From Defluviitalea saccharophila (GTDB taxonomy: Bacteria > Bacillota > Clostridia > Lachnospirales > Defluviitaleaceae): 64,000 nt of DNA. The translations under genes and the position numbers were made by a program. This document shows, piece after piece, positions 1 through 15,647 of this stretch. The notes below the pieces were generated by a model, which did not search any database, had not been told where the DNA came from, and saw only the letters and a program-made list of their open reading frames with translations. The DNA is taken from contig NZ_CP121687.1 in the NCBI RefSeq assembly GCF_038396635.1, positions 2,232,001-2,296,000 on the forward strand, given 5' to 3'. Position 1 is the first letter of the stretch; each line of letters opens with the position of its first letter.

Positions 1-603
1 AATAGTAATCGTATTCATTTTATCATGGGCAGAAATGGAAGTGGAAAAACGACTTTCATTAAATGTCTATTGGGACTTGAACATTATGAGGGAACGATCA
101 CATATGGCGGAAAAGTATTGGAGGATGTGCGGAAGGGTATTTTCGCTATATTTGACGACATTCCCCTTTACAATGATTTAAATGGCTTTCAAAATATCAG
201 ATTAATGTTATCTGATAAAAAATTTTTTGATAAAAATTATATTGCAGAACTTGGCTTATTATCAGACAAGAAGCTGAAAGAGAATATAAAAAATTATTCC
301 CTAGGGGAACGCAAAAAGCTGGCATTGATTGCGGCCATACTTAATAACCCTAAATATCTCATTATAGATGAAATTTCAAACGGACTGGATATTGAAACCC
401 TTGAAACCCTTCGAGAAAAATTGAATGTTTTAAGGCAGAATTCCTTAATACTTGCTACAGGTCATCATTTTGAATTTTATGAAAGCATCATTGATGAATT
501 ATTGGTTCTTAATGCTGGAACATTAACCTATATTTCAGATTATAGAAAAGGCGGTGACAAACTATATGAAATCTATAAACAATATATTGCAAGTGGCAAA
601 TAA
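1..603 (+). CDS. ABC transporter ATP-binding protein, 5' end outside the window
   Basis: This is the nucleotide-binding subunit of an ABC exporter; it hydrolyses ATP at the membrane to drive the permease encoded next. The frame is open from base 1 (reading NSNRIHFIMGRNGSGKT), so the gene starts upstream and the ATG at 25 sits just before the Walker A and cannot be the true start. Visible motifs are Walker A GRNGSGKT, an ABC signature YSLGERKKL (degenerate LSGGQ) and Walker B YLIIDE with the D-loop SNGLD. The stop lies inside the permease gene, so the two overlap by about 38 bases and are probably translationally coupled. The substrate cannot be told from the sequence; bacteriocin self-immunity or drug export is typical for this subfamily, which is inference. 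Confidence 0.9.
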   Translation, partial: NSNRIHFIMGRNGSGKTTFIKCLLGLEHYEGTITYGGKVLEDVRKGIFAIFDDIPLYNDLNGFQNIRLMLSDKKFFDKNYIAELGLLSDKKLKENIKNYSLGERKKLALIAAILNNPKYLIIDEISNGLDIETLETLREKLNVLRQNSLILATGHHFEFYESIIDELLVLNAGTLTYISDYRKGGDKLYEIYKQYIASGK

Positions 604-1516
604 AGAACTGTATTATCAATGGTGCTCAAAGAAAATTGCGATTTTGCTTTTTATCCTTCTTTTCTTGAGTATATTTCATCTTATAGGACTGCATAATCGT
701 GTCATAACTTCTTATAACAGGTATCAAAGAACAGAAATGACCTATAGGGAAAATGGGATTGATATAGTAAAGGCATTAGAACAGCCTAACAATGTCTATG
801 TAGAAAATAATTCAAAAATAACAAGCAATCCATTAAAAGACGATTTCATATCCCTTGCCATTGCTATTCAAAGCTTAAAGCCTCGGAATATCATCAGTAA
901 TACCCTTGAGTATTTAGTATTTGTTTTTTGCACTTTAATCTTCGGTATTTATGCCGCCTATGTTGCTACATATGATTTTAGATTTAAGACATACAAATTT
1001 GTATCTGTCGGCGATAACCAGAGAGATATCATTTTAGGGAAGTTATTATCTGTTATTATTACAATGACTGGAACAATGGTATTTGTACTTATTTTTACCT
1101 TCATAGGCTCTTTTATTGTAAATCCGATTGTAGTCGCTAAAGTACCGGTAAAGGATTTCACAATAGACATTTTTAATTATGAGTATGGCATTATACCACA
1201 GTTATTTTTATCATTTATAGTGATACTATTCTATGTGATTGTCGGATTTTCAATAGGATTTATTTTAAAAAGTATGCTGATACCAACGATTGGGTTATTG
1301 CTTTATGGCTTATTTATTCCTGTCTTGGGAGCTTACGACTTCAGGAATATAATTTCCTACTTCTCTCATCAGGTATTTACTTTTACAGCTCGATTTGTGA
1401 TGTTTAAACCTATGCCAATTAATGAAGTGCTGGGCATATTACTAACCCTGGCAACAGCAGTCATTCTATTCGTTGTTCTTTTTACGGTAGCAAAAAAACG
1501 CAGTGCATATAGTTAA
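566..1516 (+). CDS. ABC-2 type membrane permease
   Basis: Membrane subunit paired with the upstream ATPase. It has about six hydrophobic segments: one near the N-terminus (about residues 20-40), then a polar loop of about 70 residues, then segments near residues 110-135, 160-185, 205-245 and 275-310. This matches ABC-2 exporters. I chose ATG 566 because AGGCGGTG at 549-556 is a near-perfect Shine-Dalgarno nine bases upstream; a GTG at 554 in the same frame overlaps that site. The gene begins inside the ATPase gene, which supports a two-gene operon. No sequence signature gives the cargo. Confidence 0.8.
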   Translation: MKSINNILQVANKELYYQWCSKKIAILLFILLFLSIFHLIGLHNRVITSYNRYQRTEMTYRENGIDIVKALEQPNNVYVENNSKITSNPLKDDFISLAIAIQSLKPRNIISNTLEYLVFVFCTLIFGIYAAYVATYDFRFKTYKFVSVGDNQRDIILGKLLSVIITMTGTMVFVLIFTFIGSFIVNPIVVAKVPVKDFTIDIFNYEYGIIPQLFLSFIVILFYVIVGFSIGFILKSMLIPTIGLLLYGLFIPVLGAYDFRNIISYFSHQVFTFTARFVMFKPMPINEVLGILLTLATAVILFVVLFTVAKKRSAYS

Positions 1517-1655
1517 ATTGTCAAGGGACATCAAACAGTTAAAGCGTAACCTTGTAGATTTTGAGGAGGAAAATACTATTGCTCAATACAATATAAGTTT
1601 ATTCACAGATTATAAATCACCTAATGAGTTTGTAAAGAAATTCAAAGATCTATAG
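1503..1655 (+). other. short open frame, possible gene remnant (50 codons)
   Basis: The frame opens with GTG inside the end of the permease gene and reads a protein-like, charged sequence (for example LSRDIKQLKRN and FVKKFKDL) to TAG at 1653. There is no Shine-Dalgarno before the GTG, so independent translation is unlikely. I do not recognise the family. It may be the tail of a decayed gene or a chance frame. Other apparent decay follows immediately downstream. Confidence 0.2.
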
Positions 1656-1679
1656 ATAATAATGGGTCTTTTTTTATAG

Positions 1680-1754
1680 GGAGAGAATAATGCCAAAGAA
1701 ATTTTGTTCAACTACGGCTTTTCTACAGAGAAAATATTAAGGTATAAAGCTTAA
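1680..1754 (+). pseudogene. possible C-terminal remnant of a CoA-transferase-like gene
   Basis: After an in-frame TAG the 24 codons read GENNAKEILFNYGF then STEKILRYKA and a stop. The pattern 'GE-(x)3-EIL-(x)3-GFS-(x)-E-(x)-I' resembles the last residues of CaiB/BaiF-type CoA transferases. There is no start codon with a ribosome site in this frame and nothing upstream continues it. The identification rests on a very short stretch and is tentative. Confidence 0.15.
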
Positions 1755-1828
1755 CATTAGCGTTAAGATAAAGTATTATAAAATAATTTTATCAAACGAC
1801 AAAAAACTGCAAAAAATTGCAAACTTAC

Positions 1829-1857
1829 TTGTATAGATTAGTGGAAACAGATAAAAT
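1829..1857 (+). promoter_or_regulatory. probable sigma-A promoter for the PAS-GGDEF-EAL gene
   Basis: TTGTAT and TAAAAT are separated by 17 bases. A start near 1864 would give a leader of about 110 nt holding the hairpin at 1908-1945. The -35 match is partial. Confidence 0.4.
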
Positions 1858-1907
1858 ATAATTATAATTAATAAAGCAATAGAATTAACGGCGATTTGTT
1901 TTCCACT

Positions 1908-1945
1908 CTAAAATAGACTTGCTTTGTTAAGCAAGTCTATTTTAG
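1908..1945 (+). terminator. perfect 17-bp hairpin in the leader before the PAS-GGDEF-EAL gene
   Basis: Arms starting CTAAAATAGACTTGC pair without mismatch around a TGTT loop. The A-rich left and T-rich right arms look like an intrinsic terminator in which the U tract is part of the stem. It lies 30 bases before the start codon and about 250 bases past the last upstream frame, so it may act on the downstream gene's own leader rather than end an upstream gene. Confidence 0.5.
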
Positions 1946-1975
1946 TTAAAACTAATGGAATAGGGGGTGTTTATA

Positions 1976-4069
1976 ATGAAAATATTTAAAATTTTAAGCA
2001 GCAAATTCAGGGAAAACGAAAAAGACGATATTAACTACTATAAGCAAAACAATTATAAAATAAATCCCTTATTTGAAGCCGTAAAGATTACTATAATATA
2101 TGGATTGGTAGGAGAGCTGTGGATTTTACTATCCGATGAAATTGCCAGAAGCTTTTCGGGAAGTCTTGAAATGTATAAACAAATACAAACCTATAAAGGC
2201 GGAATCTATGTACTTGTAACAATGGTGTTAATTTTTTTACTCATATTAAGTAAAATGAGTCTTTTGAAAAAAGCCTTTAAAGAAATAACAAAGAATTATC
2301 AAGAATTAAGTTCTAAAAATCAAGAATTACTAAAGCTGGATCAAGAACTTAGAAGAAAAGTGGATGAATTAGAAAAACATAGAAATGCTCTTGTGATCAG
2401 TGAGCAGAGGTTAGAATTGGCTATTGAAGGATCAGATAATGGTATTTGGGATTGGGATTTAGAAAAAGGTACCTTTTATATTTCTCCAAATTGGAAAACT
2501 TATCTTGGATATGGGCAAGATGAAATTGACGATACCAGTGAAGCTTGGGTAGAATTGCTCCATCCAGAGGATAGAAATGAAGCTGTATCAAAAATACATG
2601 CATATATCCTCTCTCCACAAAGCTCCTATGAACATGTCAATAGAATAAGATGCAAGGATGGAAGCTACAAATGGATACTCGCCAGGGCAAAAGCCATCAA
2701 AAGTGAAGACGGAAGAGTTACTAGAATAGCAGGCTCACAAGTGGATATTACGAAGGTAAAACAATTAGAAGAAAAGCTGCATTTATTAGCTTATTATGAT
2801 CAATTGACGGGACTGCCAAATAGATTTTTATTTGAAGAAAAAATGAATACCCTTTTAAGGGAAAGAACGTACTCTAACCAAAAGTTTGCCTTATTATATA
2901 TGGATATCGATAATTTTAAGAATGTAAATGATACCTTGGGTCATTCTTCAGGAGATCTACTAATTCAATACGTTGCAAACATTTTAAAATATCACGTCAA
3001 AGAACCAGATTTTGTAGCAAGATTAGGCGGAGATGAATTTGCAATTATTTTCTGCGATATCAAGGATAACAAAGATGTTGTAGATAGAGTTCAAACCTTA
3101 TTAAAGTATTTGAAAAGACCATGGATTCTTGAAAATCAAGAGTTTTATATAACTGTTAGTATTGGCATTGCAATATACCCTGAGCATGGGGATGACTTAT
3201 CTCTATTGCTTAAAAATGCAGATATTGCCATGTATTTTGTGAAGAAACATCTTAAAGGGAATTACTGCTTTTATTCTTTAGAATTGCAAAACAAAAGCTT
3301 AGAGCAGATCAAAATGATTAATTATCTAAGACATGCCATAGACCATAATGAATTTTATCTTCTGTATCAGCCGATTATTGATTTACAAAGCAGCAATTTA
3401 ATGGGGGCTGAAGTTTTAATCCGATGGGTGCATCCGAAGCTTGGAGTTATCCCTCCGATGAAGTTTATACCTTTGGCAGAAGAAACGGGTCTTATCTATG
3501 ATATAGAAAAGTGGGTATTAAAAACGGCTTTAATGCAAAAGAAAGACTGGCAAGAAAAGAAATATCCGAATTTGAAAATATCTATCAATATTTCAGGAAA
3601 AAGAATTACCAGCGCAGGAATTATCAATGAAATCAGAGACTTATTGCATGAAACAAGGTTAAAATCCGATGAAATACAGCTTGAAGTAACAGAAACTGCT
3701 GTAATGAAAGATCTGGATGCATCTATGAAAATCCTAAATGAAATTAAAAATATGGGAATACAAATTGCCCTTGATGATTTTGGAACAGGCTATTCTTCTC
3801 TAACCTATCTTAAAAAATTACCTATTGATATTGTAAAACTGGATAGAGAATTCATTAAAAATATATCCATAGAAAATAATGATCGGTTGATCATAGAGCA
3901 TATCATTAAGTTGATACAGGAATTAAATTTAAAGGTACTGGCTGAAGGAATCGAACTCCAGGAGCAGGTCGCCATTCTGAAAAATTACAACTGCGATTAT
4001 GGACAAGGGTATTTATTCGGAAAACCTGTTACCAAAGAGGAGTTTGAAAAATTAATTCTTTCTAATTAG
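1976..4069 (+). CDS. membrane PAS-GGDEF-EAL protein (c-di-GMP synthesis and breakdown)
   Basis: A 697-residue c-di-GMP enzyme. Order: two membrane segments (about residues 30-50 and 70-95) with a motif ELWILLSDE, a coiled coil (about 98-135), a PAS domain (about 147-262), GGDEF (about 285-435) and EAL (about 450-695). GGDEF is intact (RLGGDEFAII), with no RxxD inhibitory site in the usual place (KEPD instead). EAL is written EVLIRW, but the metal and catalytic residues are present: VTETAVM, LDDFGTGYSS, VKLDREF, EGIE and GQGYLFGKP. Both activities are therefore possible. Start: ATG 1976 with AGGGGGTG at 1962-1969; a GTG at 1967 overlaps that site. A possible attenuating hairpin precedes it. 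Confidence 0.93.
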   Translation: MKIFKILSSKFRENEKDDINYYKQNNYKINPLFEAVKITIIYGLVGELWILLSDEIARSFSGSLEMYKQIQTYKGGIYVLVTMVLIFLLILSKMSLLKKAFKEITKNYQELSSKNQELLKLDQELRRKVDELEKHRNALVISEQRLELAIEGSDNGIWDWDLEKGTFYISPNWKTYLGYGQDEIDDTSEAWVELLHPEDRNEAVSKIHAYILSPQSSYEHVNRIRCKDGSYKWILARAKAIKSEDGRVTRIAGSQVDITKVKQLEEKLHLLAYYDQLTGLPNRFLFEEKMNTLLRERTYSNQKFALLYMDIDNFKNVNDTLGHSSGDLLIQYVANILKYHVKEPDFVARLGGDEFAIIFCDIKDNKDVVDRVQTLLKYLKRPWILENQEFYITVSIGIAIYPEHGDDLSLLLKNADIAMYFVKKHLKGNYCFYSLELQNKSLEQIKMINYLRHAIDHNEFYLLYQPIIDLQSSNLMGAEVLIRWVHPKLGVIPPMKFIPLAEETGLIYDIEKWVLKTALMQKKDWQEKKYPNLKISINISGKRITSAGIINEIRDLLHETRLKSDEIQLEVTETAVMKDLDASMKILNEIKNMGIQIALDDFGTGYSSLTYLKKLPIDIVKLDREFIKNISIENNDRLIIEHIIKLIQELNLKVLAEGIELQEQVAILKNYNCDYGQGYLFGKPVTKEEFEKLILSN

Positions 4070-4166
4070 CCTTTTTATATGATGTGTTAGTTTAGTATTG
4101 TTTATGAAATGAACTACGAAATCTTGGCAGGAGTGACTTAATAAATAGAAGCTAAGGAGAGACGCT

Positions 4167-4343
4167 ATGAGTAACTATACAAAAGAAGATTTAGACGCTG
4201 CTCTGCAAATTATATCTTCAACGATTAGTAACTGTGAAAAAATGTAGCCAAAATTCCCAGAAGGCACATCTCAGCATACCCTTCTTAAAAACAGGATAAA
4301 AGCCTTGTATATTTCAAAAGCCCTAATAGAAGGCGAAAACATT
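4167..4343 (+). pseudogene. first copy of a duplicated small gene, interrupted by TAG
   Basis: ATG 4167 follows GCTAAGGAGAGACGCT, a strong ribosome site, and encodes MSNYTKEDLDAALQII and so on for 26 residues before TAG at 4245. Past the stop the same frame continues PKFPEGTSQHTLLKNRIKAL and runs without any stop into the ATG of the second copy at 4344. Aligned to copy two without gaps, TAG sits where copy two has CAG (Gln), so one C-to-T change explains the break. The copies share roughly half their residues (YT, ISS, CEK, EG, KN, YISK). It was probably once a two-repeat protein of about 120 residues. Function unknown; no family recognised. Confidence 0.6.
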
Positions 4344-4532
4344 ATGGACAGATATACAAGGGAAGAACTGATAGGAGCCCTAAGCCCTATATCCTCAATT
4401 ATCAGCAAATGTGAAAAAGCACAGTTAAAATGTAAAGAGGGCTCCTCCCACTACACCCGATTCAAGAATATAATACATGCGATGTATATTTCAAAGACAT
4501 TCATAACCGATGAAATCAATAAAAGTAGTTAA
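4344..4532 (+). CDS. small conserved-looking protein, second copy of a tandem duplication
   Basis: A 62-residue soluble, helical protein starting MDRYTREELIGAL and holding CEKAQLKCKEG and MYISKTFITDEI. An in-frame TTG at 4305 lies in the tail of the first copy. ATG 4344 is preferred because it aligns with the first copy's ATG and has AAGGCGA eight bases upstream. No known domain is visible. It sits between a GGDEF-EAL gene and an HDOD gene, so a role in signalling is possible but only suggested by position. Confidence 0.6.
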   Translation: MDRYTREELIGALSPISSIISKCEKAQLKCKEGSSHYTRFKNIIHAMYISKTFITDEINKSS

Positions 4533-4732
4533 TGTGACAAATAGCATAGAATTTCGATAAGAATTCTGATAAAATAAATTTAATATTCAAATAAACAGCT
4601 AAAAAAGAGCAATTTTAAAAACATCAAATGTAATAGCGCTATCAAAATTAAAAGACAATATGAAAACATACAGGATACTTTTTTATTGAACATAAACGTA
4701 TACAATAAATTTTTAAGAAAGTAGGATGATAC

Positions 4733-5596
4733 ATGGAGAACCATAAAATTATTCAACAGATAAAGGCATCTAATGATTTACCGGAAGTTCCGAAATCTTT
4801 TGGAGAAATTTTAAAAATGCTTCTTGATCCCTGTAATTTTGACATGGATGCATGCATTGAAAAGTTTTCCTATCATCCTCAGCTTGAGAATGCTTTAATA
4901 CAGGTATTAAATGATCATTCCAAACTAAAACGCGAGATTGTCAGCATAAAGGATGCAGTGGTTTATCTGGGTGCAAAAAATGCCAGAATCATTGCAATCG
5001 CATATGTTACCCGATTATTATTGCCGTACAGAAAAGGTAAGACTCAGATTTTTGACCATAATATTTATCTGAAACATTGTATTGGCACATCGATTGCCAG
5101 TTCTATGATCGCAGAGAAAACAGGTTTATGCGATAAAGACAAGATGTTTATTTACGGACTTATTCATGATATTGGTGTAATAGTCCTGGACGTATGTTTT
5201 CCTGAATACCTGGATAAGATTTATGAACTCCAAAAGAACGGTGTTCATCAAATCGTGGCAGAAAAAATAGTTTTAGGCGGAATAACCCATTCGGAGATTG
5301 GCAGATGGTTGTGCAAAGAATGGGGCTTACCCGATGAAATTGCACAGATTGTAGGCTTTCATCATACTCCGTTTTTATCGAATCAATTCACAACCGAAGT
5401 ACAGATCATCCATCTGGGAGATTCTATAAGTGCCAATTATTACGAACAGCTATTAGGAAATAAAACAGCGTTTATCTTTTCTGAAAAGATCATGGAAGCT
5501 TTAGGGGTAAATAAAGAATTCGTCAATGAAATTATTAGAAGGTTGCCAAAAGAAGTAGCAAAAATTAATCAAATCATAGAGTTCAAGGTCTTATAA
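4733..5596 (+). CDS. HDOD-domain signalling protein
   Basis: A 287-residue cytoplasmic protein made almost entirely of an HDOD domain. Family features visible are LPEVPKSFGEILKML near the N-terminus and LIHDIGVIVLD near residue 142, in the place of the HD-domain metal site, followed by 'GFHH' near residue 205. HDOD proteins usually lack full HD hydrolase activity and act as binding modules in chemotaxis or c-di-GMP circuits. Its position among c-di-GMP and two-component genes fits that. Start ATG 4733 follows AAGTAGGATGATAC. Enzymatic activity cannot be judged from sequence alone. Confidence 0.88.
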   Translation: MENHKIIQQIKASNDLPEVPKSFGEILKMLLDPCNFDMDACIEKFSYHPQLENALIQVLNDHSKLKREIVSIKDAVVYLGAKNARIIAIAYVTRLLLPYRKGKTQIFDHNIYLKHCIGTSIASSMIAEKTGLCDKDKMFIYGLIHDIGVIVLDVCFPEYLDKIYELQKNGVHQIVAEKIVLGGITHSEIGRWLCKEWGLPDEIAQIVGFHHTPFLSNQFTTEVQIIHLGDSISANYYEQLLGNKTAFIFSEKIMEALGVNKEFVNEIIRRLPKEVAKINQIIEFKVL

Positions 5597-5724
5597 AAAA
5601 CAAATGATTCAAATCCCCGTTTTATTTGTTTTCTTTATGTATTTTCAATCTTTTAAAGAAAATGTTTACAAGCATTTTATGGGCAGCACAATAGACAAAA
5701 AATAGAGAATTTTGTTGAAGAAGA

Positions 5725-5753
5725 TTGACAAATACAGTATAATTTCATATTAA
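5725..5753 (+). promoter_or_regulatory. probable promoter for the sensor kinase gene
   Basis: TTGACA and TATTAA lie 17 bases apart. A transcript from about 5760 would have a leader of about 165 nt that includes a terminator-like hairpin at 5836-5876. Confidence 0.5.
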
Positions 5754-5835
5754 TAATATAGTAATTTTTATATAATAATGTAAAGGCTTATTTAGATTTC
5801 CTTTATATAGGCTGCAATTATATATGACATCATAC

Positions 5836-5876
5836 AAATTTCCGCTGAGAATAAAAAATTTTGGCGGAAATTTTTT
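5836..5876 (+). terminator. intrinsic-terminator-like hairpin inside the kinase leader
   Basis: AAATTTCCGC pairs with GCGGAAATTT across an 18-base loop and is followed by further T residues. It lies after the likely promoter and 48 bases before the kinase start, so it could attenuate the kinase mRNA. No known riboswitch class was recognised in the leader. Confidence 0.5.
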
Positions 5877-5923
5877 GAGAATCACGAAAGTCAATGTATT
5901 CGTGTGGGTATTGGAGGGATTCG

Positions 5924-8293
5924 ATGAAAAAAGGGGGTTTGAATTGTTTTAGGACATTTTTGTGGCTTCTTATATTTATTTCAGCCATTTTATGTGCAAT
6001 GCAGTATAATCATGGAGAAAAAACCACCAAAAACATAGTAATTCTCAATTCTTATCACAAAGGACTTACCTGGACGGACGAACAGACAAACGGGATACTA
6101 AATGCGCTTAATCAGTATCATAACGATCTATCTATTTCAGTGGAATACATGGATTGGAAAAGGTATCCTACCGAAGAAAACATAAATAATATCTATACTC
6201 AATTGGAGTATAAATATTCCAATCAGAAAATAGATTTAATTTTAACGACAGATGATGCGGCTCTTGACTTTGCTTTGAAGCATCGGCATGCTATTTTTTC
6301 TGATGCGCCAATTGTTTTTTCTGGGGTCAATGAAAAAGATGCCTTAAGATTATTAAGGGAGCATCAAAAGGTAACAGGGGTAGTGGAAAAAGTTGATCCG
6401 GATCAAACCATAGCGCTCGCTTTAAAAATTAATCCGAAAATCAAAGAAGTTTATGTTATTTACGATAACACAGAAAGCGGATTGTCTACCGGGGAATTAA
6501 CGATTGAAGCAATTCGTAGAATCAATCCGGAGATCAAAATAAAGACATATAATGATAAGCCTTTTAATGAACTATTGTCCGATGTCGCCCATGCCCCTAA
6601 AGACAGTATCGTTCTTATTACTACCTATTATTCGGACATAGACCATACAGTCCTTGGCTTTGAAAAGACCTGTAGATTAATTAGTGCCGCCAGCGCTGTT
6701 CCGATTTATCATCTATATACCTTTGGGCTAAATAATGGCGCCCTGGGAGGAAGTATGCTTAATGGAAAACTGCAGGGGGAAGCAGCTGGCCAGCTCGCTT
6801 TTAGGATTTTACAGGGCGAAGATATAGATCGCATACCCCGTAGCGACTTTCAGGCAACAGAATATATCTTTGACTATCATCAGCTTCAAAGATTTAATAT
6901 TTCAAAAAGCAAATTGCCGAAGGAAAGTACAATCATCAATAAACCATTTTCATTTTTTGAGACATATCATGATATAGTTGTTACTACAATTATTATATTT
7001 GTAATCCTAGTAATCTTTATTTGTATATTGCTCTATCATTTAAAAAAGATCCATAGAATGAAAGAGGAGCTGGAAGCGAAACATGATGAGTTAACCCAGC
7101 TCAATAAAGAATTGACTGCCTCTGATCATAAAATCAAAAGCCAATATCTTGAATTGGTAAGAACGCAGGAAAATTTGATGCTTAGGGAACATCAATATCG
7201 GCTGTTGTTCGAAAAAATGCTGAATGGATTTTTTGTGTTTAAACCCGTATACAATGAAGATCACAAACTAGTGGATATTAAGTTCTTGAATGTTAATCCA
7301 AGCTTTAAACAACAAGCCAATATACAAATTGATGATGTTATTGGGAGAACATGGACGGATATCTTCGGTTATCCCAGCTTAGAATTGAGTATCTATGAGA
7401 GGATATTGGAAACAGGAAGAACTGAACGTTTTGAAACTTATTATGGAAAAATAAATGCATATTACTTAGTTAATGCTTTTAAGATATCCAGTAATCAAAT
7501 AGGAGTTATTTTTGAGAATATCTCAGAGTATAAAATGGCAATAAAAGAAATTAAAAAGCTCAATGAAGAATTAGAACAAAGAGTTGCCATAAGAACTGCA
7601 GAACTTAGTCAGGCCATGGATGAATTAGAATCCTTTACTTATACCGTATCCCATGATTTAAAATCACCCCTTAGGGCAATAGACAGCTACAGCAGAATCA
7701 TGTATGAAGACCATGGTAAAAATCTTCATAGTGATGCCGTAGATATCATTCACAACATAAGAGGAATCTGTAAAGACTTAATCAGTATGATCAATAATCT
7801 CTTAGAATACTCCATGGCATCGAAAAAAGAGCTAAGTAAAGAAGAAATCAATATAAAAGAAATGTTTATTTCCGTATTCAATGAACTGCAGCTTGCATAT
7901 CCGGAAAGAGAGGTAAACTTAATTATTGAAACAGTCCTTCCCACTGTTTATGCCGATAAACTTTTATTAAGGCAAGTGATCTACAATATCCTGTCCAATG
8001 CTTTTAAGTTTACAAAGAATGCAAGCAAACCACGGATCATCATCGGCAATACGATTACTTCAGAAGAATATATTTTCTATGTCAAAGATAATGGCATCGG
8101 ATTTAACATGGAGTATTCAAAAAAGCTATTTGGAATTTTTCAGCGGCTTCATACTAGTGATGAATTTGAAGGTACTGGCATAGGCCTCGTGACTATTAAA
8201 AAAATAATCCAAAAGCATGGGGGAAGGGCATGGATAGAAGGACAAGTGAACGTTGGAGCCACGATATATTTCACTTTGCCATTTTCTTGGTAA
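5924..8293 (+). CDS. sensor histidine kinase with ABC-type substrate-binding sensor domain
   Basis: A 789-residue membrane kinase. Order: signal-anchor (about residues 8-28), extracytoplasmic domain of the ABC substrate-binding type (about 35-325; NIVILNSYHKGLTWTD, DLILTTDDAAL, PIVFSGVNEKD), a membrane segment (about 348-372), coiled coil, PAS (about 422-535), HisKA with phospho-acceptor His near 577 (VSHDLKSPLRA) and HATPase with N box NAFKFT, G1 DNGIGF and G2 GTGIGL. It likely reads an external small molecule and phosphorylates the regulator encoded 24 bases downstream. Start ATG 5924 follows GGAGGG; an earlier in-frame ATG at 5894 has no good ribosome site. The ligand is unknown. Confidence 0.92.
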   Translation: MKKGGLNCFRTFLWLLIFISAILCAMQYNHGEKTTKNIVILNSYHKGLTWTDEQTNGILNALNQYHNDLSISVEYMDWKRYPTEENINNIYTQLEYKYSNQKIDLILTTDDAALDFALKHRHAIFSDAPIVFSGVNEKDALRLLREHQKVTGVVEKVDPDQTIALALKINPKIKEVYVIYDNTESGLSTGELTIEAIRRINPEIKIKTYNDKPFNELLSDVAHAPKDSIVLITTYYSDIDHTVLGFEKTCRLISAASAVPIYHLYTFGLNNGALGGSMLNGKLQGEAAGQLAFRILQGEDIDRIPRSDFQATEYIFDYHQLQRFNISKSKLPKESTIINKPFSFFETYHDIVVTTIIIFVILVIFICILLYHLKKIHRMKEELEAKHDELTQLNKELTASDHKIKSQYLELVRTQENLMLREHQYRLLFEKMLNGFFVFKPVYNEDHKLVDIKFLNVNPSFKQQANIQIDDVIGRTWTDIFGYPSLELSIYERILETGRTERFETYYGKINAYYLVNAFKISSNQIGVIFENISEYKMAIKEIKKLNEELEQRVAIRTAELSQAMDELESFTYTVSHDLKSPLRAIDSYSRIMYEDHGKNLHSDAVDIIHNIRGICKDLISMINNLLEYSMASKKELSKEEINIKEMFISVFNELQLAYPEREVNLIIETVLPTVYADKLLLRQVIYNILSNAFKFTKNASKPRIIIGNTITSEEYIFYVKDNGIGFNMEYSKKLFGIFQRLHTSDEFEGTGIGLVTIKKIIQKHGGRAWIEGQVNVGATIYFTLPFSW

Positions 8294-8317
8294 GAGAAGT
8301 TGGGAGGGGATAAAAAA

Positions 8318-8740
8318 GTGCTGAATGTGCTGATTGTTGATGATATGGATATTGTTCGCCGGGAGATCAAGCGGCTTAAGGTATGGGGGGAGTCTACAGG
8401 GTTTGTCATCGCAGAGGAAGCATCCAATGGACAAGCAGCTTTGGAGATTCTGGAAAATAGCTCTATAGACTTAGTAATTACCGATATAAAAATGCCGAAG
8501 GTAGACGGTCTGGAATTGCTTGAAAAAATTATGGAGAAAAATTTATGTCCATGTGTTGTACTGCTAAGCGACTATACAGATTTTACGTATGCCAGACAAG
8601 GGATTATATTAGGTGCCTTTGACTATATGTCCAAGCCCGTTTGTGAAGAAGAATTTGAAAAATTACTCCATAGAGCAAAGAAGCATATCACTGCAAAAAG
8701 CAGGGAAAAAGAAAGGCTAAAAGCGCTCCAAAAAATTTAG
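8318..8740 (+). CDS. response regulator, receiver half (ends early by frameshift)
   Basis: Receiver domain of the partner regulator: acidic pocket LIVDD, phospho-acceptor Asp in DLVITDIKMPKVDG (about residue 55), Ser in LLSDY and Lys in DYMSKP. The frame stops at TAG 8738 just past the receiver, within a sequence that should continue into the DNA-binding half. At the end the codons are CTC CAA AAA ATT TAG; one more A in the A-run at 8730-8735 would give CAA AAA AAT TTA GAA and join it to the next frame. Start GTG 8318 has GGGAGGGG eight bases upstream; the TTG at 8300 overlaps that site. Confidence 0.9.
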   Translation: MLNVLIVDDMDIVRREIKRLKVWGESTGFVIAEEASNGQAALEILENSSIDLVITDIKMPKVDGLELLEKIMEKNLCPCVVLLSDYTDFTYARQGIILGAFDYMSKPVCEEEFEKLLHRAKKHITAKSREKERLKALQKI

Positions 8741-9399
8741 AAGAAATAGTAGAAGTCTACTTTTCGGACGCTGAAGTGAGGCAAGTAGTACACCTTATGG
8801 AGCATGGAGATATGGAATACATCGAGGCATTGTCGCGGATGATGGATAGAATAGAGAACCATTTAGACCATGAATTCCTCAAAATAGAAAGAGCCTTAAG
8901 AAGTGTCTTTCGTGAGGTCGTAAAAACAATATTAGAGAACAAAAAGTGGCTGGAAAAATTTATTGATCCAAAGGAAATGAATGATATTAACTTTTTAAAT
9001 TGCAAAGAAATTGACGATTTAAGAGAAGCATTCATGGATAGGATAAAAACTATCTTTGATATTCTCGATAAACTGTATTGTACTAAAACATATAATGACA
9101 CGATTGTTCAAATCTGTGACTGTGTATTGGAGAATTCCGAGGATCAACTTTCTCTAACCTATATTGCAGAAAAACTCTATATGAATAAAAATTATATCAG
9201 CGAGGTATTTAAGCAAAAAACAGGAATGTCCATTACTCAATATCTTACGAGAATTAAGATGGAGAGAGCCAAGGTTTTAATCGCTGATGGGAAACTAAAG
9301 ATCTATGAGATCAGTGATATGCTGGGTTATAAAGATGTTGAATACTTTAGTAAGGTATTCAAAAAATATACGGGGATGTCCCCGACTCAATTTCGATAA
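8741..9399 (+). pseudogene. AraC-type DNA-binding half of the response regulator, out of frame
   Basis: The frame reads NLEEIVEVYFSDAEVRQ directly past the upstream stop, then a helical linker, then two helix-turn-helix units of the AraC family (LTYIAEKLYMNKNYISEVF and YEISDMLGYKDVEYFSKVF, ending MSPTQFR). The first in-frame start codon is GTG 8776, which has no Shine-Dalgarno, so this is best read as the C-terminal part of the receiver gene rather than its own gene. Joined, the product would be about 360 residues, a usual size for receiver-linker-AraC regulators. The break may be real, or a lost A in the assembly. Confidence 0.85.
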
Positions 9400-9455
9400 A
9401 TAACCTGATTTTTTTCAGGGTATGTCCTTGTTATTTTACATTCTGAATCATAAAG

Positions 9456-9497
9456 AAATCTTGTACTATATACATGAATAGGTACAAGATTTTTTTA
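9456..9497 (+). terminator. intrinsic terminator after the kinase-regulator operon
   Basis: AAATCTTGTAC pairs with GTACAAGATTT, followed by a run of T. Confidence 0.85.
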
Positions 9498-9615
9498 TTG
9501 CACCAAAGATTAGGACAAAGTATATGTATCATGACTTCATAGATAATAACTACTCTGGCAATTGCAGGAGGGGTTATGTGATGGATACAAATTTATAATA
9601 TAGGAGAGGGAAAAT

Positions 9616-9771
9616 GTGTATAGCAAGTTAAAAGAACTACAAGAATTTTTAAACGAAATGATTGCGTCAGAACAATATACATACGAAGAAATCTTAAATG
9701 TTAGCCAAAAGCTGGATTTTTTAATGGTCGATTATTTGAAAGAACAATGCCATGAGGAAAATGAACAATAA
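9616..9771 (+). CDS. Spo0E-like small protein (aspartyl-phosphate phosphatase family)
   Basis: A 51-residue helical hairpin protein carrying VSQKLDFLMVDYL, which matches the SQxLDxLI signature of Spo0E-type phosphatases. Characterised members remove phosphate from Spo0A and so delay sporulation. The start is GTG 9616 with GGAGAGGG five bases upstream; the overlapping ATG at 9614 hits a stop after five codons. It lies 32 bases before a GGDEF-EAL gene, probably in the same transcript. The second position of the signature region (L-M instead of L-I) is a mild deviation. Whether its target is Spo0A cannot be told from sequence. Confidence 0.8.
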   Translation: MYSKLKELQEFLNEMIASEQYTYEEILNVSQKLDFLMVDYLKEQCHEENEQ

Positions 9772-9803
9772 AATTCAATAAAGAATATAAAGAAGGTGCC
9801 AAA

Positions 9804-11483
9804 ATGCTGGAGAACGAAAAAATATATGATTATAAAAAAATATCCATTAAGATATGTTTGATCTATCTATCCATAGGTCTTTTATGGATTGTTATGTCGG
9901 ACTTAGCTGTTGTTACGACTGTTAAGGATAAAGATCTGATGACCTCTATCAATATAATCAAAGGATGGGGATATGTATTCGTTAGCGGCATTCTGATCTA
10001 CTTACTTACATATTTGACATTAAAAAAAATAAGCGACAAAGAAACTGAATTACGGCAGAGCTATCAGGAGCTGCTAGCTGCCAATGAGGAAATAGAGGCA
10101 ACTTATGGTCAACTGGCAGCCTCTGAAGGCTTATTAAAACAGCAATATCAGGAAATGGTAATTCATCAGCAGAAGCTCATGGAAAGCGAAAAAAGATATA
10201 AACTCATTTCTGAAGCATTACATCATCTCGCTTACCATGACCAATTAACAGGCTTAAAAAATAGAAATGCTTTTACTACTGCTTTAACCAAGCTTATGGA
10301 ACAAGAGCATTCTAAAAAAATAGGACTCCTCTTTGTAGATATTGATAATTTCAAATACATAAATGATTCCATGGGGCATACTTTTGGGGATCAGGTTCTA
10401 AAGGAAATAGGAAAACGACTGACTAAATTTCAGAATGAACATATTAGTATTTATAGATTAGGGGGAGACGAATACATCGTCTTGCTGGAAAGTTTTGGAG
10501 AAATTACTGAGGTTGAGAAACTGGCAGTCAATGTATTAAGAGCATTGAATCAACCTTTAGAAATCAGCAGCAGTTCGATTTTTATAACCGCAAGTATCGG
10601 TATATCCCTATTCCCTGAACACGGTGAAAACATTGATGAACTTCTAAAAAATGCGGATATTGCTGTATTTAGAGCAAAGGAAGCAGGCAAAAATAAAATC
10701 ATAATTTTTAATCAGCCTATGAATGAAGCCGTAACTGAACGGGCTCAGATTGAAAAGCATCTTAGAACTGCTTTGGAAAAGAATGAATTTGAATTATACT
10801 ATCAGCCTCAGTTAGATGTAAATACCAATCATATTTCGGGTTTTGAAGCCCTTTTAAGGTGGAAAAATCCTGAACTTGGCTTCGTGCCCCCTAATAAATT
10901 CATAAGTGTTGCAGAAGATACCCATTTAATCATACCTATTGGAGAGTGGGTATTAAGAAACAGCTGTATGTTTTTGAAGCATCTCCATAATCAAGGATAT
11001 AGGGATTTGACCATGTCTGTTAATATTTCTATGCTGCAGTTATTACAAGACGATTTTGTGGATATGGTTACAGATATCCTTGAATTAGTTAAAATCCATC
11101 CCAAATACCTTGAACTGGAGATTACAGAATCTGTTTTTATGGAGTCTTATGAGACCATAGCAGGAAAACTAAAACTTTTAAAGGCAATAGGTGTAAAAAT
11201 TGCATTAGATGACTTTGGCAAAGGCTATTCCTCTCTCCATTATTTAAAACACCTTCCCATATCCACATTAAAAATTGATAAGACCTTCATTGATAATATT
11301 TCCCTGGATAAAGTAAACAAGTCTTTAACCCATTTGATTGTGAAAATAGGAAGAGTTATGGATTTGTGTGTGGTAGCAGAAGGGGTTGAAACAGAAGAAC
11401 AAATGGAATACCTAAAAAACACAAATGCAATAAAATACAAGGATATCTGTTTTGCAGGCCTTTACCACAGAATGAAATCTTAA
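9804..11483 (+). CDS. membrane GGDEF-EAL protein, frameshifted near the C-terminus
   Basis: A 559-residue c-di-GMP enzyme: two membrane segments (about residues 13-32 and 50-72) with the motif LLWIVMSD also seen in the PAS-GGDEF-EAL protein at 1976, a coiled coil (about 78-130), GGDEF (about 142-295, RLGGDEYIVLL) and EAL (about 310-540, FEALLRW, LEITESVFM, LDDFGKGYSS, LKIDKTFI, EGVET). The end is wrong for the family: the frame reads IKYKDICFAGLYHRMKS. Moving back one base at about 11425 reads CNKIQGYLFCRPLPQNEIL and runs to TAA 11522-11524. That restores the conserved QGYLF, so a base has been lost. As written the EAL domain lacks its last strand and helix and may not work. Confidence 0.9.
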   Translation: MLENEKIYDYKKISIKICLIYLSIGLLWIVMSDLAVVTTVKDKDLMTSINIIKGWGYVFVSGILIYLLTYLTLKKISDKETELRQSYQELLAANEEIEATYGQLAASEGLLKQQYQEMVIHQQKLMESEKRYKLISEALHHLAYHDQLTGLKNRNAFTTALTKLMEQEHSKKIGLLFVDIDNFKYINDSMGHTFGDQVLKEIGKRLTKFQNEHISIYRLGGDEYIVLLESFGEITEVEKLAVNVLRALNQPLEISSSSIFITASIGISLFPEHGENIDELLKNADIAVFRAKEAGKNKIIIFNQPMNEAVTERAQIEKHLRTALEKNEFELYYQPQLDVNTNHISGFEALLRWKNPELGFVPPNKFISVAEDTHLIIPIGEWVLRNSCMFLKHLHNQGYRDLTMSVNISMLQLLQDDFVDMVTDILELVKIHPKYLELEITESVFMESYETIAGKLKLLKAIGVKIALDDFGKGYSSLHYLKHLPISTLKIDKTFIDNISLDKVNKSLTHLIVKIGRVMDLCVVAEGVETEEQMEYLKNTNAIKYKDICFAGLYHRMKS

Positions 11484-11524
11484 AAAAATTAGAAATCAGT
11501 CAACAAGACATGCAACTATCATAA
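11484..11524 (+). pseudogene. out-of-frame end of the GGDEF-EAL gene
   Basis: This stretch holds the last codons (LEISQQDMQLS, stop at 11522) of the EAL frame that begins at 11426 inside the gene upstream. It is followed directly by that gene's terminator at 11556-11591, as expected if 11524 is the original end. Confidence 0.7.
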
Positions 11525-11555
11525 CGGTTTCAATTTCTCCCTTAATTGATACACT

Positions 11556-11591
11556 AAAACGACTTTCAGAGTACTCTGGAGGTCGTTTTTT
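11556..11591 (+). terminator. intrinsic terminator after GGDEF-EAL gene
   Basis: AAAACGAC and GTCGTTTT pair, with an inner CAGAG/CTCTG stem, followed by T residues. Confidence 0.85.
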
Positions 11592-11610
11592 CTTACATAG
11601 GAAACTCCTT
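11592..11610. repeat. decayed copy of the dispersed palindrome (left arm only)
   Basis: CTTACATAGGAAACTCC matches the left arm of the repeat family seen at 14155 and elsewhere; the right arm is gone. Like the intact copies it follows a terminator. Confidence 0.4.
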
Positions 11611-11786
11611 GAAAACAATAAAAAATAAAAAATTTTAATAATAAATTGTTGTCTTAATTATGAAAAAATATTATATTGACGAATAATATCTAAATATAGT
11701 AGACTGTAGAAAACTGTTATTAATAACAGTTACTATTAAAAAGTGAATGTCAAATATTTATCAAGGATTTGCAAAGGAGGGGTGCA

Positions 11787-14078
11787 ATGCTAGAAAAACT
11801 CTCAATGCGTATGATCATGACGATTCTATTCATAACACTTACACTAATTACTTTTGTCATACAAGGGTACATAGTTTTTTCTAGCTGGCTGGCTTATGCA
11901 GATAATACAATCACCCAGAGGATAGACAGTATGCACAATGAGATACACTATAGTATTAAGCTGCTTTTAGACACCACTCAAGATAAGAATCAACTGAATG
12001 AAGAATTCATAGAACAACATATCATTTTTTCAAAACTCAATCATTATTTAGAAGATATTGTTAAAGAGAACAATGCTTTTACAATTATTGTTGACAAAGA
12101 CTCAGAATCTTTGATTGCAAATTCAGTAAACACTCCTAATTTGAGAATTCTTAAAGATGGCAGTTTAAGAAGAGTAAAGATTGATGAAATAAATCACGAA
12201 GCCTTCCTTAATGCATATAAAAATTATAGAGATACAGGTGATAGGCGTTTTAGAATAAAGTATGGGCAAGACAGATTATGCATCAACGTAATGGAATACC
12301 ATGATGAGGGATTAGATTGGATTATCCTTACAGGTGTTTTAGAAAGCTTATTTACTTCAGGCATTTATCATAATCTGAGATTGACAATTGTTTTAACTTT
12401 ATTGACAATCTTTATATCTATAGTTATCTATTTAAGATTTGTTAATAAGTTTTTAAGACCAATTGATGGGCTGGTTGAGGCTACTGAAAGCTTCTCCCGA
12501 GGAAATTTGCTGCAGCGTGCAGAGATTGTTCGAGATGATGAAATAGGAAGACTGGCCAAATCTTTTAATAAAATGGCAGATACAATCCTAAATCATGTTA
12601 ATGAGCTGGAACAAAAGGTGAAAGAAAGGACCAAAGCGCTGGAGATTGCCAATGAGGTATTAAGAGAAAATAAAGAAAAACTCCAACTTCTTCTTGATTC
12701 AACGGCAGAAGGAATTTATGGTGTGGATCTTGAGGGAAAATGCACTTTTTTTAATACCAGCGGGGTAAAACTTTTGGGCTACACCAGTCAAGAGGAGTTA
12801 CTGAATCAGGATATACATTTTAAAATTCATCATAGTCATAAAGATGGCACGCCGATGCCAGCGGATCAATGTAAGATATATAAAGCCCTTTCAGAGAGCA
12901 AAGGTGTTCATGTAGAAGATGAGGTTTATTGGAGAGCGGATGGCAGTTATTTTGATGTGGCATATTCTTCCTATCCACAGTACAAGGATGGAAAACTCGT
13001 TGGTGTTGTTGTTACATTTATAGACAATACAGAAAAAAAGAAAGCTCAGGAGCATATCCGGTATCTTACTTATCATGACGTTTTAACGGGTTTGTATAAC
13101 AGGATGTTCTTTGAAGACAAATTAAGAAGAATCGATATCAAAGACAATCTGCCTCTCTCGGTTATTTATGGAGACGTTAACGGATTAAAGCTTACAAATG
13201 ATATTTTCGGCCATGCTGCAGGAGATGAACTTTTAAAGAAAGTCGCCAGGGTATTTAAAAAATTTGCTGGAGAAAAAGGTATAGCGGCTCGTTTAGGTGG
13301 GGATGAATATGCGCTTCTTTTGCCCAATACACCAGGGGAAGAGGCAGAAAAAATCATGAACAGCATCAGCGAAGAGATCTCCAAGGAGAAAATTGTTGCC
13401 ATAAAAGGCAGTATGTCCATGGGATATGCTACGAAAACCCAATTAGATCAAAATATCATCATGATAGTGGAGCATGCCGAATCAAAAATGTATAAGCAAA
13501 AAATGCTCAATCGTCGAAATGTAGATTCTGATATGATAACAACCATCATGGAAACGCTGCATCATAAAAATCCTGAAGAAAAACAGCACTCCTTAGAGGC
13601 AAGTGAATTGTGTAAAAATATTGGACAAGCCATGCACTTATCGGAAGCAGAGGTGAAAAAATTTAAAGAAGCAGGCTTTTTCCATGATATCGGAAAAATC
13701 GTATTAAGTGAAAACATTCTGAAGAAAACGGATGACTTGACAGAAGAAGAAAAGAAGGAACTCATGCAGCATCCGATTATCGGATTTAGAATTCTCAATC
13801 TGTTTCAGGATACATTGGATTTGGCGGAAGGCGTCTTAAGCCACCATGAAAACTGGGATGGTTCAGGTTACCCGAAAGGGTTAAGAGAGGAAGAAATTCC
13901 TCAACTATCAAGAGTCATTAGGGTGGTTGAAATGTATGAAGATTTGATGCAGGATTTTAGTAACCCTCCTATTCATAAAGAAGAAGCCTTACAAATCATT
14001 AGAAAAGAAGCAGGGGTCACTTTGGACCCCAACATCGCAGAGATATTTATCAAGGTAATGTCAGAAGCCAATGCTTAG
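11787..14078 (+). CDS. membrane sensor PAS-GGDEF-HD-GYP protein
   Basis: A 763-residue protein with both c-di-GMP synthesis and breakdown domains. Order: membrane segment (about residues 8-32), extracytoplasmic sensor (about 35-195), second membrane segment (about 200-220), HAMP (about 222-278), coiled coil, PAS (about 290-410), GGDEF (about 425-570, RLGGDEYALLLP) and HD-GYP (about 580-760). HD-GYP hallmarks are FFHDIGKI, HPIIGFRIL and HHENWDGSGYPKGL. The usual VADxYDA metal-site stretch reads VVEMYEDLM, so one Asp is replaced by Glu. Start ATG 11787 follows AAAGGAGGGG; an in-frame ATG at 11769 lacks this spacing. Monocistronic, with a terminator behind it. Confidence 0.92.
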   Translation: MLEKLSMRMIMTILFITLTLITFVIQGYIVFSSWLAYADNTITQRIDSMHNEIHYSIKLLLDTTQDKNQLNEEFIEQHIIFSKLNHYLEDIVKENNAFTIIVDKDSESLIANSVNTPNLRILKDGSLRRVKIDEINHEAFLNAYKNYRDTGDRRFRIKYGQDRLCINVMEYHDEGLDWIILTGVLESLFTSGIYHNLRLTIVLTLLTIFISIVIYLRFVNKFLRPIDGLVEATESFSRGNLLQRAEIVRDDEIGRLAKSFNKMADTILNHVNELEQKVKERTKALEIANEVLRENKEKLQLLLDSTAEGIYGVDLEGKCTFFNTSGVKLLGYTSQEELLNQDIHFKIHHSHKDGTPMPADQCKIYKALSESKGVHVEDEVYWRADGSYFDVAYSSYPQYKDGKLVGVVVTFIDNTEKKKAQEHIRYLTYHDVLTGLYNRMFFEDKLRRIDIKDNLPLSVIYGDVNGLKLTNDIFGHAAGDELLKKVARVFKKFAGEKGIAARLGGDEYALLLPNTPGEEAEKIMNSISEEISKEKIVAIKGSMSMGYATKTQLDQNIIMIVEHAESKMYKQKMLNRRNVDSDMITTIMETLHHKNPEEKQHSLEASELCKNIGQAMHLSEAEVKKFKEAGFFHDIGKIVLSENILKKTDDLTEEEKKELMQHPIIGFRILNLFQDTLDLAEGVLSHHENWDGSGYPKGLREEEIPQLSRVIRVVEMYEDLMQDFSNPPIHKEEALQIIRKEAGVTLDPNIAEIFIKVMSEANA

Positions 14079-14108
14079 ATCAGTTTAAGATACATAAGTT
14101 TTAATAGA

Positions 14109-14156
14109 TGCTCTATAGAGAGACAAGCGTATAAGTCTCTTTATAGAGCATTTTTT
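14109..14156 (+). terminator. intrinsic terminator
   Basis: TGCTCTATAGAGAGAC pairs with GTCTCTTTATAGAGCA (one mismatch) and a T tract follows. Confidence 0.9.
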
Positions 14157-14194
14157 ATTACATAGGAAATCCATTTGGATTTCCTATGTAATAA
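14155..14194. repeat. dispersed palindromic repeat, copy with perfect 19-bp arms
   Basis: Arms TTATTACATAGGAAATCCA and their exact complement flank a TT loop. This is the cleanest member of a family with further copies near 37664, 40075, 44714, 49987, 62149 and 62852 and a half copy at 11592. It starts in the T tract of the preceding terminator. Confidence 0.85.
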
Positions 14195-14269
14195 AAGTTG
14201 AATTGTATGATATTTTAGTAATTTTTTAACCTTAAACCATTGACTTGTGCATTATGTACAAAAACATGG

Positions 14270-14332
14270 GTTGAAATTCAACGAAACTATACAAAAATTA
14301 TTTTGATTTCAAAAAGGGACAAGTGACCTTTT
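14270..14332. promoter_or_regulatory. candidate operators upstream of the nucleoside operon
   Basis: The 266 bases between the repeat and deoB hold two symmetric sites: GTTGAAATTCAAC at 14270-14282 (palindrome around a central A) and AAAAGG-9-CCTTTT at 14312-14332. A deo operon is normally controlled by a nucleoside- or deoxyribose-5-phosphate-sensing repressor, so these are reasonable operator candidates. No clear -35/-10 pair and no purine riboswitch were recognised here. Confidence 0.3.
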
Positions 14333-14460
14333 GTGAATTTAGTAAAACCAATATAATTAAGTTAAAGTACTAAATAATTAATTTGCTGATAGTTAATTGA
14401 ATTTTTTGGAGTATGTGAAATCGGAAAAATTATATTTTATAAGCAGATGAAGGAGGAAAC

Positions 14461-15633
14461 ATGATAGCGAAAAGAGTTTTCTTAATTGTATTAGATAGTT
14501 TTGGAATTGGTGAATTACCGGATGCCGCTTTGTTTAGTGACGAAGGAAGTAATACCTTAGGATCGATTGTCAAATCCAGTCAATATGATACCCCTAACAT
14601 GAAAAAACTTGGTTTATTTAATATCGACGGCGTATCCTGCGGGGAAAAAGAAGCCTATACCCTAGGTTCTTACGGAAGAATGGGTGAAAAGTCCATGGGC
14701 AAAGATACCACCATCGGACATTGGGAAATAGCCGGATTAATTTCGGAGAAACCTTTACCTACTTATCCCAACGGATTTCCCGAAGAAGTGCTGAATGAAT
14801 TTAGAAAACGAACCGGAAGAAATGTTTTATGCAATAAGCCATACTCCGGAACGGATGTTATTCGTGATTATGGACAACAGCATGTAGAAACAGGGGATTT
14901 AATTGTTTATACCTCTGCTGACAGCGTTTTTCAGATTGCAGCCCATGAGGACATCGTTCCTTTAGAGGATTTATACAAATACTGTACTATTGCAAGAGAA
15001 ATCTTACAGGGAGAGCATGGCGTAGGAAGAGTCATTGCAAGACCTTTTGTGGGGGAATATCCAAACTTTAAAAGAACAGCCCATCGCCACGACTATTCTT
15101 TGATTCCGCCAAAGAAGACAATGTTAGATTACTTAGAACAATCTGGACTTGAAACCATAGGCGTTGGGAAAATATACGATATTTTTGCCGGAAAGGGCAT
15201 ACAGAAAACCGTTTCGATTGTCAGCAATACAGATGGAATGAATAAAACTCTGCAGATTATGGATGAAGAGTTTAATGGTTTATGTTTTGTTAACCTGGTG
15301 GATTTCGACATGATTTATGGTCATAGAAATGACATCGACGGATATGCTAAGGCAGCTACAGAATTTGATAAGCAATTAGGGTTATTCATGGATAAAATGA
15401 AAGACGATGATATTTTAATCATTACAGCCGATCATGGCTGCGATCCGGGAACGCCCAGTACGGATCATTCCAGAGAATATACTCCAATGCTTGCTTACGG
15501 AAAGAAAATAAAAGAAAACACATCCATTGGAACAAAAGATACTTTTGCCGATATCGGAGCAACCATTCTTGATATCTTTGATATCCAGGGAGACATCGGC
15601 GGCAAAAGCTTTTTGAAGGAGATATTAAAGTAA
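14461..15633 (+). CDS. deoB: phosphopentomutase
   Basis: Interconverts ribose or deoxyribose 1-phosphate and the 5-phosphate, linking nucleoside phosphorolysis to central carbon metabolism. The 390-residue length is normal for DeoB. Alkaline-phosphatase-superfamily metal sites are visible: VLDSFGIGELPDA at the N-terminus (Asp ligand), KDTTIGHWEIAG near residue 82 (catalytic Thr) and ITADHGCDPGTPSTDHS near residue 320. Start ATG follows AAGGAGGA. First gene of a tightly spaced nine-gene operon that ends at the terminator at 23734. Confidence 0.97.
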   Translation: MIAKRVFLIVLDSFGIGELPDAALFSDEGSNTLGSIVKSSQYDTPNMKKLGLFNIDGVSCGEKEAYTLGSYGRMGEKSMGKDTTIGHWEIAGLISEKPLPTYPNGFPEEVLNEFRKRTGRNVLCNKPYSGTDVIRDYGQQHVETGDLIVYTSADSVFQIAAHEDIVPLEDLYKYCTIAREILQGEHGVGRVIARPFVGEYPNFKRTAHRHDYSLIPPKKTMLDYLEQSGLETIGVGKIYDIFAGKGIQKTVSIVSNTDGMNKTLQIMDEEFNGLCFVNLVDFDMIYGHRNDIDGYAKAATEFDKQLGLFMDKMKDDDILIITADHGCDPGTPSTDHSREYTPMLAYGKKIKENTSIGTKDTFADIGATILDIFDIQGDIGGKSFLKEILK

Positions 15634-15647
15634 AGGAGCAATTTTAA

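Follow-up and report, generated by a model that had tools for sequence, protein, structure and literature searches.

The genome of Defluviitalea saccharophila carries a gene for a Spo0E-like protein 32 bases ahead of a gene for a GGDEF-EAL protein. Does this arrangement tie the level of c-di-GMP to the decision to sporulate? The question was raised by a preliminary description of the 64,000-nucleotide stretch of DNA analyzed here (the window; contig NZ_CP121687.1, positions 2,232,001 to 2,296,000), which singled out a dense island of c-di-GMP and two-component genes and proposed that co-transcription of the pair would provide such a link. The source genome is a single contig of 3.01 Mb, 99% complete.

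Spo0E of C. difficile is reported to bind Spo0A and repress sporulation (PMC11115286), and c-di-GMP to inhibit early sporulation of the same organism, “likely” through an “unidentified regulatory pathway” (PMC8653836). The latter paper also cites work in which single deletions of c-di-GMP genes had no effect on sporulation in two Bacillus species. The present locus would resemble the C. difficile system in that c-di-GMP influences entry into sporulation, and it differs in offering a physical gene link, Spo0E being absent from that paper's main text. The pairing had been called not commonly described, and our searches agree: among open-licence papers in PubMed Central none was found that names both Spo0E (or SpoOE) and GGDEF, and the combination of Spo0E with “EAL domain” returned there a single paper, on VieB of Vibrio cholerae. 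Spo0E and the word “diguanylate” co-occur in six papers, for example PMC11115286, in whose main text “c-di-GMP” occurs 0 times.

Gene content of the island

Genes were called from the ORF list and a Pfam scan of window positions 25-17620. The features are as follows.

1976..4069, + strand: PAS-GGDEF-EAL protein (Pfam, motifs; ATG start, with a GTG at 1967)
4167..4532, + strand: small protein gene, tandem duplicate of a unit of about 58 aa (two copies, by sequence comparison)
4733..5596, + strand: HDOD protein (PF08668, 108 bits)
5894..8293, + strand: sensor histidine kinase with ABC_sub_bind-like domain and PAS (Pfam)
8300..9399, + strand: response regulator with AraC-type HTH (Pfam; a single 366-aa gene in contig L005, see below)
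9450..9498, + strand: terminator-like hairpin downstream of the response regulator gene and upstream of spo0E (folding, -18.7 kcal/mol)
9616..9771, + strand: Spo0E-like protein of 51 aa, starting at GTG, with the motif SQKLD (PF09388, 28.5 bits)
9804..11483, + strand: GGDEF-EAL protein (Pfam; truncated at the C-terminus through the loss of one base near 11413)
11556..11589, + strand: terminator-like hairpin 3′ of the GGDEF-EAL gene (folding, -18.9 kcal/mol)
11769..14078, + strand: HAMP-PAS-GGDEF-HD-GYP protein (Pfam PF13487, 107.9 bits; motifs)

Every gene named in the preliminary description was recovered, including the HDOD gene, the Spo0E-type gene at its distance of 32 bases and the three genes for c-di-GMP turnover proteins, which were recognized by Pfam and by their motifs; the exception is the separate AraC gene, discussed below. 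The motif searches used patterns characteristic of EAL and HD-GYP domains. In the first protein of the island the GGDEF site is canonical, AEVL replaces EAL, VKLD replaces LKID, and QGYL is present. The HD-GYP protein shows HDIGK and HHE by pattern and GSGYP upon reading of the translation, and its GGDEF site is GGDEY. Three c-di-GMP genes lie within 11.1 kb, a clustering that arises in about 2% of random placements of 16 genes (17 matches, two of them in one gene), in a test that is post hoc and ignores tandem duplication. An Rfam search of window positions 1-20000 yielded no c-di-GMP riboswitch, nor any other RNA at gathering score.

Two probable assembly errors

A close relative of the island is contig L005, from a metagenome-assembled genome deposited as “Candidatus Epulonipiscium sp. 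isolate AS22ysBPME_176” (class Clostridia, order Lachnospirales according to NCBI), which is 98.6% identical to the window across 11.8 kb. Comparison with L005 and with a congeneric genome (G001, locus L046) identified two breaks in the window. The kinase/AraC pair of the preliminary description stands as to the kinase; its AraC gene proved to be part of a larger one, the receiver ORF (8300-8740) and the “AraC” ORF (8776-9399) forming one gene of 366 aa in L005 and 361 aa in G001. An A-run near 8729 counts 6 A in the window and 7 A in L005. Similarly, the GGDEF-EAL ORF stops early in the window, at 559 aa, with one A missing near 11413; the protein measures 573 aa in L005 and 628 aa in G001, and both carry the EAL motif “QGYL”. 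The window ORF is without the QGY motif because of this one-base deletion. G001 is unbroken at both sites. Each change is the loss of a single A from an A-run, and neither break occurs in the relatives; real pseudogenization is for these reasons less likely than assembly error, and the genes were probably split falsely by homopolymer errors in this assembly. Window and L005 also differ in the small ORF at 4167-4532, where a TAG of the window is replaced by CAG in L005, which leaves the frame open there (121 aa); an open ORF matching it by length and place occurs in G001. No Pfam family matches the small protein above cut-off.

The Spo0E-like protein

The Spo0E family (PF09388) includes Spo0E, YnzD and YisI of B. 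subtilis. The 51-aa protein of the window matches the family profile with 28.5 bits, above the cut-off of 23 (27.4 bits in the scan of the whole genome), and has no match in NCBIfam. Its GTG start is preceded by GGAGAGGG. The SxxxD motif reads SQKLD, and its residues S30 and D34 are invariant in an alignment of 12 sequences. Relative to the G001 copy, 27 of the 51 codons are identical, with 12 synonymous and 12 non-synonymous changes among the others (dN 0.12, dS saturated). As judged from this comparison, the window gene is under purifying selection and is more than a chance ORF.

Structure prediction points in the same direction. AlphaFold2, run on the single sequence without alignment, returned a two-helix hairpin (helices 2-18 and 23-50; mean pLDDT 90.7 in the best of five models, which was kept, and 73.5 in the lowest). 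A profile made from the 12 Spo0E sequences matched PDB entries 2bzb (E 3.6e-4) and 2c0s (E 0.12), both structures of the Spo0E family. A Foldseek search of the PDB with the model gave nothing at E ≤ 0.001; what it returned were unspecific helical hairpins, the best at E 1.7, with no Spo0E entry among the best 50 rows. The protein is like the known Spo0E family phosphatases, the C. difficile protein among them, in length, SxxxD motif, predicted hairpin fold and profile match to 2bzb; unlike them, it is encoded directly ahead of a GGDEF-EAL gene, scores only 28.5 bits, and has a phosphatase activity that is predicted.

The source genome contains sigF, above cut-off, and two full-length genes for Spo0A, the presumed target of this Spo0E, also above cut-off (410.7 and 370.8 bits):

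G000:C1:490183-490968: Spo0A (profile match)
G000:C1:1207911-1208702: Spo0A (profile match)

Two Spo0A_C matches are found in seven of eight genomes of the family. The genome scan detected four Spo0E genes in all, the window copy scoring third best; to judge from the lengths of neighboring ORFs, the other three seem to recur in the family.

The GGDEF-EAL protein

The window protein carries the EAL-domain motifs EALLRW, VNIS, LEITE, DDFGKG, LKID and EGVE, and all the EAL motifs searched for are present in its L005 and G001 counterparts. The active site of its GGDEF domain is the variant GGDEY, and no RxxD inhibitory site was seen in the sequence. Because the EAL motifs are complete in the relatives, the GGDEF site is GGDEY and RxxD was not seen, the protein most likely degrades c-di-GMP, as a phosphodiesterase. 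NCBIfam gives matches to DibA and PRK10060, both below their own cut-offs. The protein shares domain order and EAL motifs with these phosphodiesterases; it differs from them in the GGDEY site, in having no visible RxxD, in the C-terminus cut in the assembly and in being paired with Spo0E.

Conservation of the pair

The GGDEF-EAL protein was searched for in eight genomes of the family, four from the genus and four others. The pair was present in three of the four genus genomes and in none of the four others; the conservation required by the preliminary description is thus borne out within the genus and does not extend to the rest of the family sample. The three genomes are the source genome itself, a second genome of the same species (G057; perhaps identical with the assembly that contains L005) and the congener G001. 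In G057 the GGDEF-EAL protein is 98% identical, and the Spo0E DNA upstream is 100% identical. Identity between window and G001 is 76% for Spo0E, and for the GGDEF-EAL protein 84% over residues 133-550 and 75% over residues 1-81. The fourth genus genome, G002, is 78% complete; neither it nor the four genomes from elsewhere in the family yielded an orthologue of the GGDEF-EAL protein, the best matches there having 33-42% identity. The closest homologues outside the genus (L006-L009, 47-48%) have no Spo0E in the flanking DNA retrieved, which is short upstream in L006.

In G001, spo0E and the GGDEF-EAL gene are separated by 27 nt, and the order of the block is kept: the end of the PAS-GGDEF-EAL gene (the G001 stretch holds its C-terminal end, the gene being conserved in L005), the small duplicate, HDOD, kinase, response regulator-AraC, Spo0E and GGDEF-EAL. 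The content of the block varies: the G001 kinase has 511 aa and no ABC_sub_bind match, and the G001 GGDEF-EAL protein carries an additional PAS domain. G001 has no HD-GYP gene at this position, so that this gene falls outside the conserved block, and the notion of the island as a single unit is not supported.

Adjacency of spo0E and c-di-GMP genes in other genomes

We surveyed 204 distinct Spo0E ORFs among the matches listed, mostly the best-scoring ones and hence not a random sample. A c-di-GMP gene lies directly downstream on the same strand in three of them: the window, G001, and G420, from another family. Among other genes, counted if they encode 100 aa or more, the figure is 11 of 1086, or 2 of 914 after leaving out 36 loci that had been fetched for their GGDEF-EAL or Spo0A matches. 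Two of the three cases come from the window genus; without it, one of 202 remains and, for this reason, adjacency alone proves little. We discarded these statistics (3/204, or 1/202 without the genus, against 11/1086 or 2/914) as a proof of linkage. The connection between c-di-GMP and sporulation put forward in the preliminary description draws instead on the G420 pair and on the fusion proteins described below.

In G420, spo0E overlaps by 11 nt the gene for a 922-aa PAS-GGDEF-EAL protein. Upstream of the pair are genes for a receiver-bearing hybrid kinase and a TetR-type regulator with a weak match to RefZ, below cut-off.

Could the pair be a chance neighborhood, in which a Spo0E paralogue specific to the genus has settled in a GGDEF-rich region, so that the two genes may be co-expressed without being functionally coupled? 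Adjacency is indeed rare and, once the genus is set aside, indistinguishable from background; island content also differs between congeners, in the HD-GYP gene, in the sensor part of the kinase and in the PAS domain of the GGDEF-EAL protein. Against this stand the retention of the pair, with its short gap, in two species, the purifying selection on spo0E, and the occurrence of independent fusions and of a further pair in other genomes. We regard a chance neighborhood as unlikely.

A model for a probable spo0E-GGDEF-EAL transcript

The 32-nt gap between the end of spo0E and the start of the GGDEF-EAL gene has an AGAAGG ahead of position 9804 and folds at just -1.0 kcal/mol. Hairpins bound the pair on both sides; the upstream one (9450-9498) has a T-rich 3′ side, and its sequence is largely kept in G001. 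Neither hairpin was among the calls of the consensus terminator scanner. Scans of this type were close to expectation, with 63 promoter sites found against 57.6 expected in shuffles, and 7 terminators against 5.9. The short gap and the bounding hairpins are in agreement with a two-gene transcript. Directly 5′ of spo0E (9566-9599) is a reading frame of five codons that has a ribosome-binding-like site of its own. It is kept in G001 with its residues changed, and could be a leader peptide or a chance occurrence.

The interpretation we favor, to which we give close to an even chance, is that the pair encodes a phosphatase of Spo0A~P and a c-di-GMP enzyme, expressed together and probably under the control of the neighboring two-component system. 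The two genes would form one transcript beside the sensor kinase and the response regulator-AraC gene, and the latter system would probably control this transcript. Upon induction, Spo0E would strip the phosphate from Spo0A~P, holding sporulation back, while the GGDEF-EAL protein would alter c-di-GMP, most likely by degrading it. A single external signal could then set two lifestyle decisions, amounting to “stay vegetative, do not settle or sporulate”. Should the inhibition of sporulation by c-di-GMP known from C. difficile hold in this organism too, Spo0E and the phosphodiesterase would work against each other; alternatively, both might favor an active, non-sessile, non-sporulating state.

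Immediate proximity of spo0E to the kinase and regulator genes lends itself to a different explanation, namely that Spo0E acts locally, in a feedback that restrains the two-component system, on the receiver of the adjacent response regulator-AraC protein (or on some other receiver) and has no role in sporulation. The three other Spo0E genes of the genome could take care of Spo0A, the G420 pair too has a receiver-bearing kinase upstream, and the authors of PMC11115286 argue for possible contacts between Spo0E-like proteins and further response regulators. The partners named in the discussion of that paper are nonetheless Spo0A and RstA, and in the window a terminator-like hairpin parts the regulator gene from spo0E. 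A local brake seems to us unlikely.

GGDEF-Spo0E fusion proteins

The case for a functional connection gains from proteins in which the two activities are joined. A profile built from four GGDEF-Spo0E proteins was run on 393 genomes of the class; with the best seven or fewer candidates scored per genome, the resulting counts are lower bounds. At least 12 matches, from 10 genomes and with scores of 168.9 to 363.3 bits, span the whole profile. Three further matches (177 to 189 bits) are incomplete: that of G082 has in-frame stops, that of G357 reaches the contig end, and one of G327 ends after the GGDEF part. The remaining matches among those listed score about 145 bits or less. Both domains are above the Pfam cut-off in nine of the 12 full-length fusions (7 genomes, 5 families), four of the nine being the sequences from which the profile was built:

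G242: two fusions
G349: one fusion
G265: one fusion
G127: one fusion
G182: two fusions
G126: one fusion
G327: one fusion

In the other three, the Spo0E domain is below cut-off (G177, 15.5 bits) or gives no Pfam match (G103 and G117). All nine confirmed fusions keep SxxxD and eight have a canonical GGDEF, the exception being G265, with RYSSDKF. Conservation of both motifs makes it seem that both activities are selected in one chain.

The existence of these fusions in other genomes of the class supports the view that the functions of Spo0E and of a c-di-GMP enzyme belong together, and, taken with the pairing, suggests that c-di-GMP and the sporulation decision are wired together. The fusions, being other proteins and having a GGDEF domain but no EAL domain, do not prove that this GGDEF-EAL protein works with this Spo0E. 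They also bring up a direct form of coupling, in which c-di-GMP or the GGDEF-EAL protein would regulate Spo0E by contact, as could happen within the fusions. The near-complete retention of both motifs in the confirmed fusions is what one would expect from it; the window proteins, however, are separate, their Spo0E has no extra partner-binding domain, and fusion relatives without a recognizable Spo0E end exist. Direct coupling in the window therefore appears improbable. Co-expression of phosphatase and c-di-GMP enzyme remains our preferred reading of the pair.

Neighboring gene families were compared over 14 fusion-protein loci. A small HTH_3 gene is present at eight loci (two checked by Pfam), a SpoVS homologue at six (five checked by Pfam), a DndB-like protein at four (two checked), and an actin-like partition protein, accompanied by a small partner, at four (one checked, by Pfam and PHROGs); DnaG-like/Toprim proteins fall into two families, found at three loci each. 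In G242 the fusion gene is followed by a BREX-1 cassette (BrxA, BrxB, BrxC, PglX, PglZ and BrxL), and BLAST relatives of this run occur in G103, next to the fusion relative without a recognizable Spo0E end. Fusion loci with SpoVS, HTH_3, partition and BREX genes (L295-L299, L304 and L312-L319; genomes G242, G349, G103 and G182) are apparently mobile elements with sporulation-related cargo. The G265 locus has no such setting that we could see, and none of these partition, SpoVS or BREX genes are among the scanned genes of the window (25-17620).

Mobile carriage of Spo0E has precedents. PMC10075063 describes phage and prophage homologues of Spo0E and AbrB beside RRNPP quorum-sensing genes, and PMC4909266 a phage Spo0E homologue. 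The fusion loci are like the elements in the former in that mobile DNA carries Spo0E-type sporulation regulators; they are unlike them in joining Spo0E to GGDEF and in lying, in several cases, beside SpoVS and partition genes, and no such fusion is found in the scanned part of the window. By tblastn, the fusion reached 80% coverage in 0 of 87 phage and 0 of 3638 plasmid records with matches. On viral contigs, 15 loci match it, 14 of them no further than residue 150 and one (L327) to residue 183; the Spo0E profile found nothing beside these matches, and one 13-bit match elsewhere in L327.

A broader proposal would make Spo0E plus c-di-GMP enzymes a recurrent unit in the class, occurring sometimes as pairs and, more often, as fusions, several of them on mobile elements. 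Synthesis or binding of c-di-GMP would gate the phosphatase, c-di-GMP thus acting directly on Spo0A~P, and the elements would thereby set the sporulation of their hosts. We find this proposal unlikely. Be that as it may, a Spo0E that shares a transcript or a polypeptide with a c-di-GMP enzyme would provide a concrete, testable route from c-di-GMP to sporulation in related bacteria and, where fusions lie near SpoVS and partition genes, c-di-GMP may be a means by which mobile elements influence sporulation of the host. Fusions of Spo0E to other domains were also observed, one with MEDS (L133, 2974-3711) and one with GAF (L213, 2359-3156).
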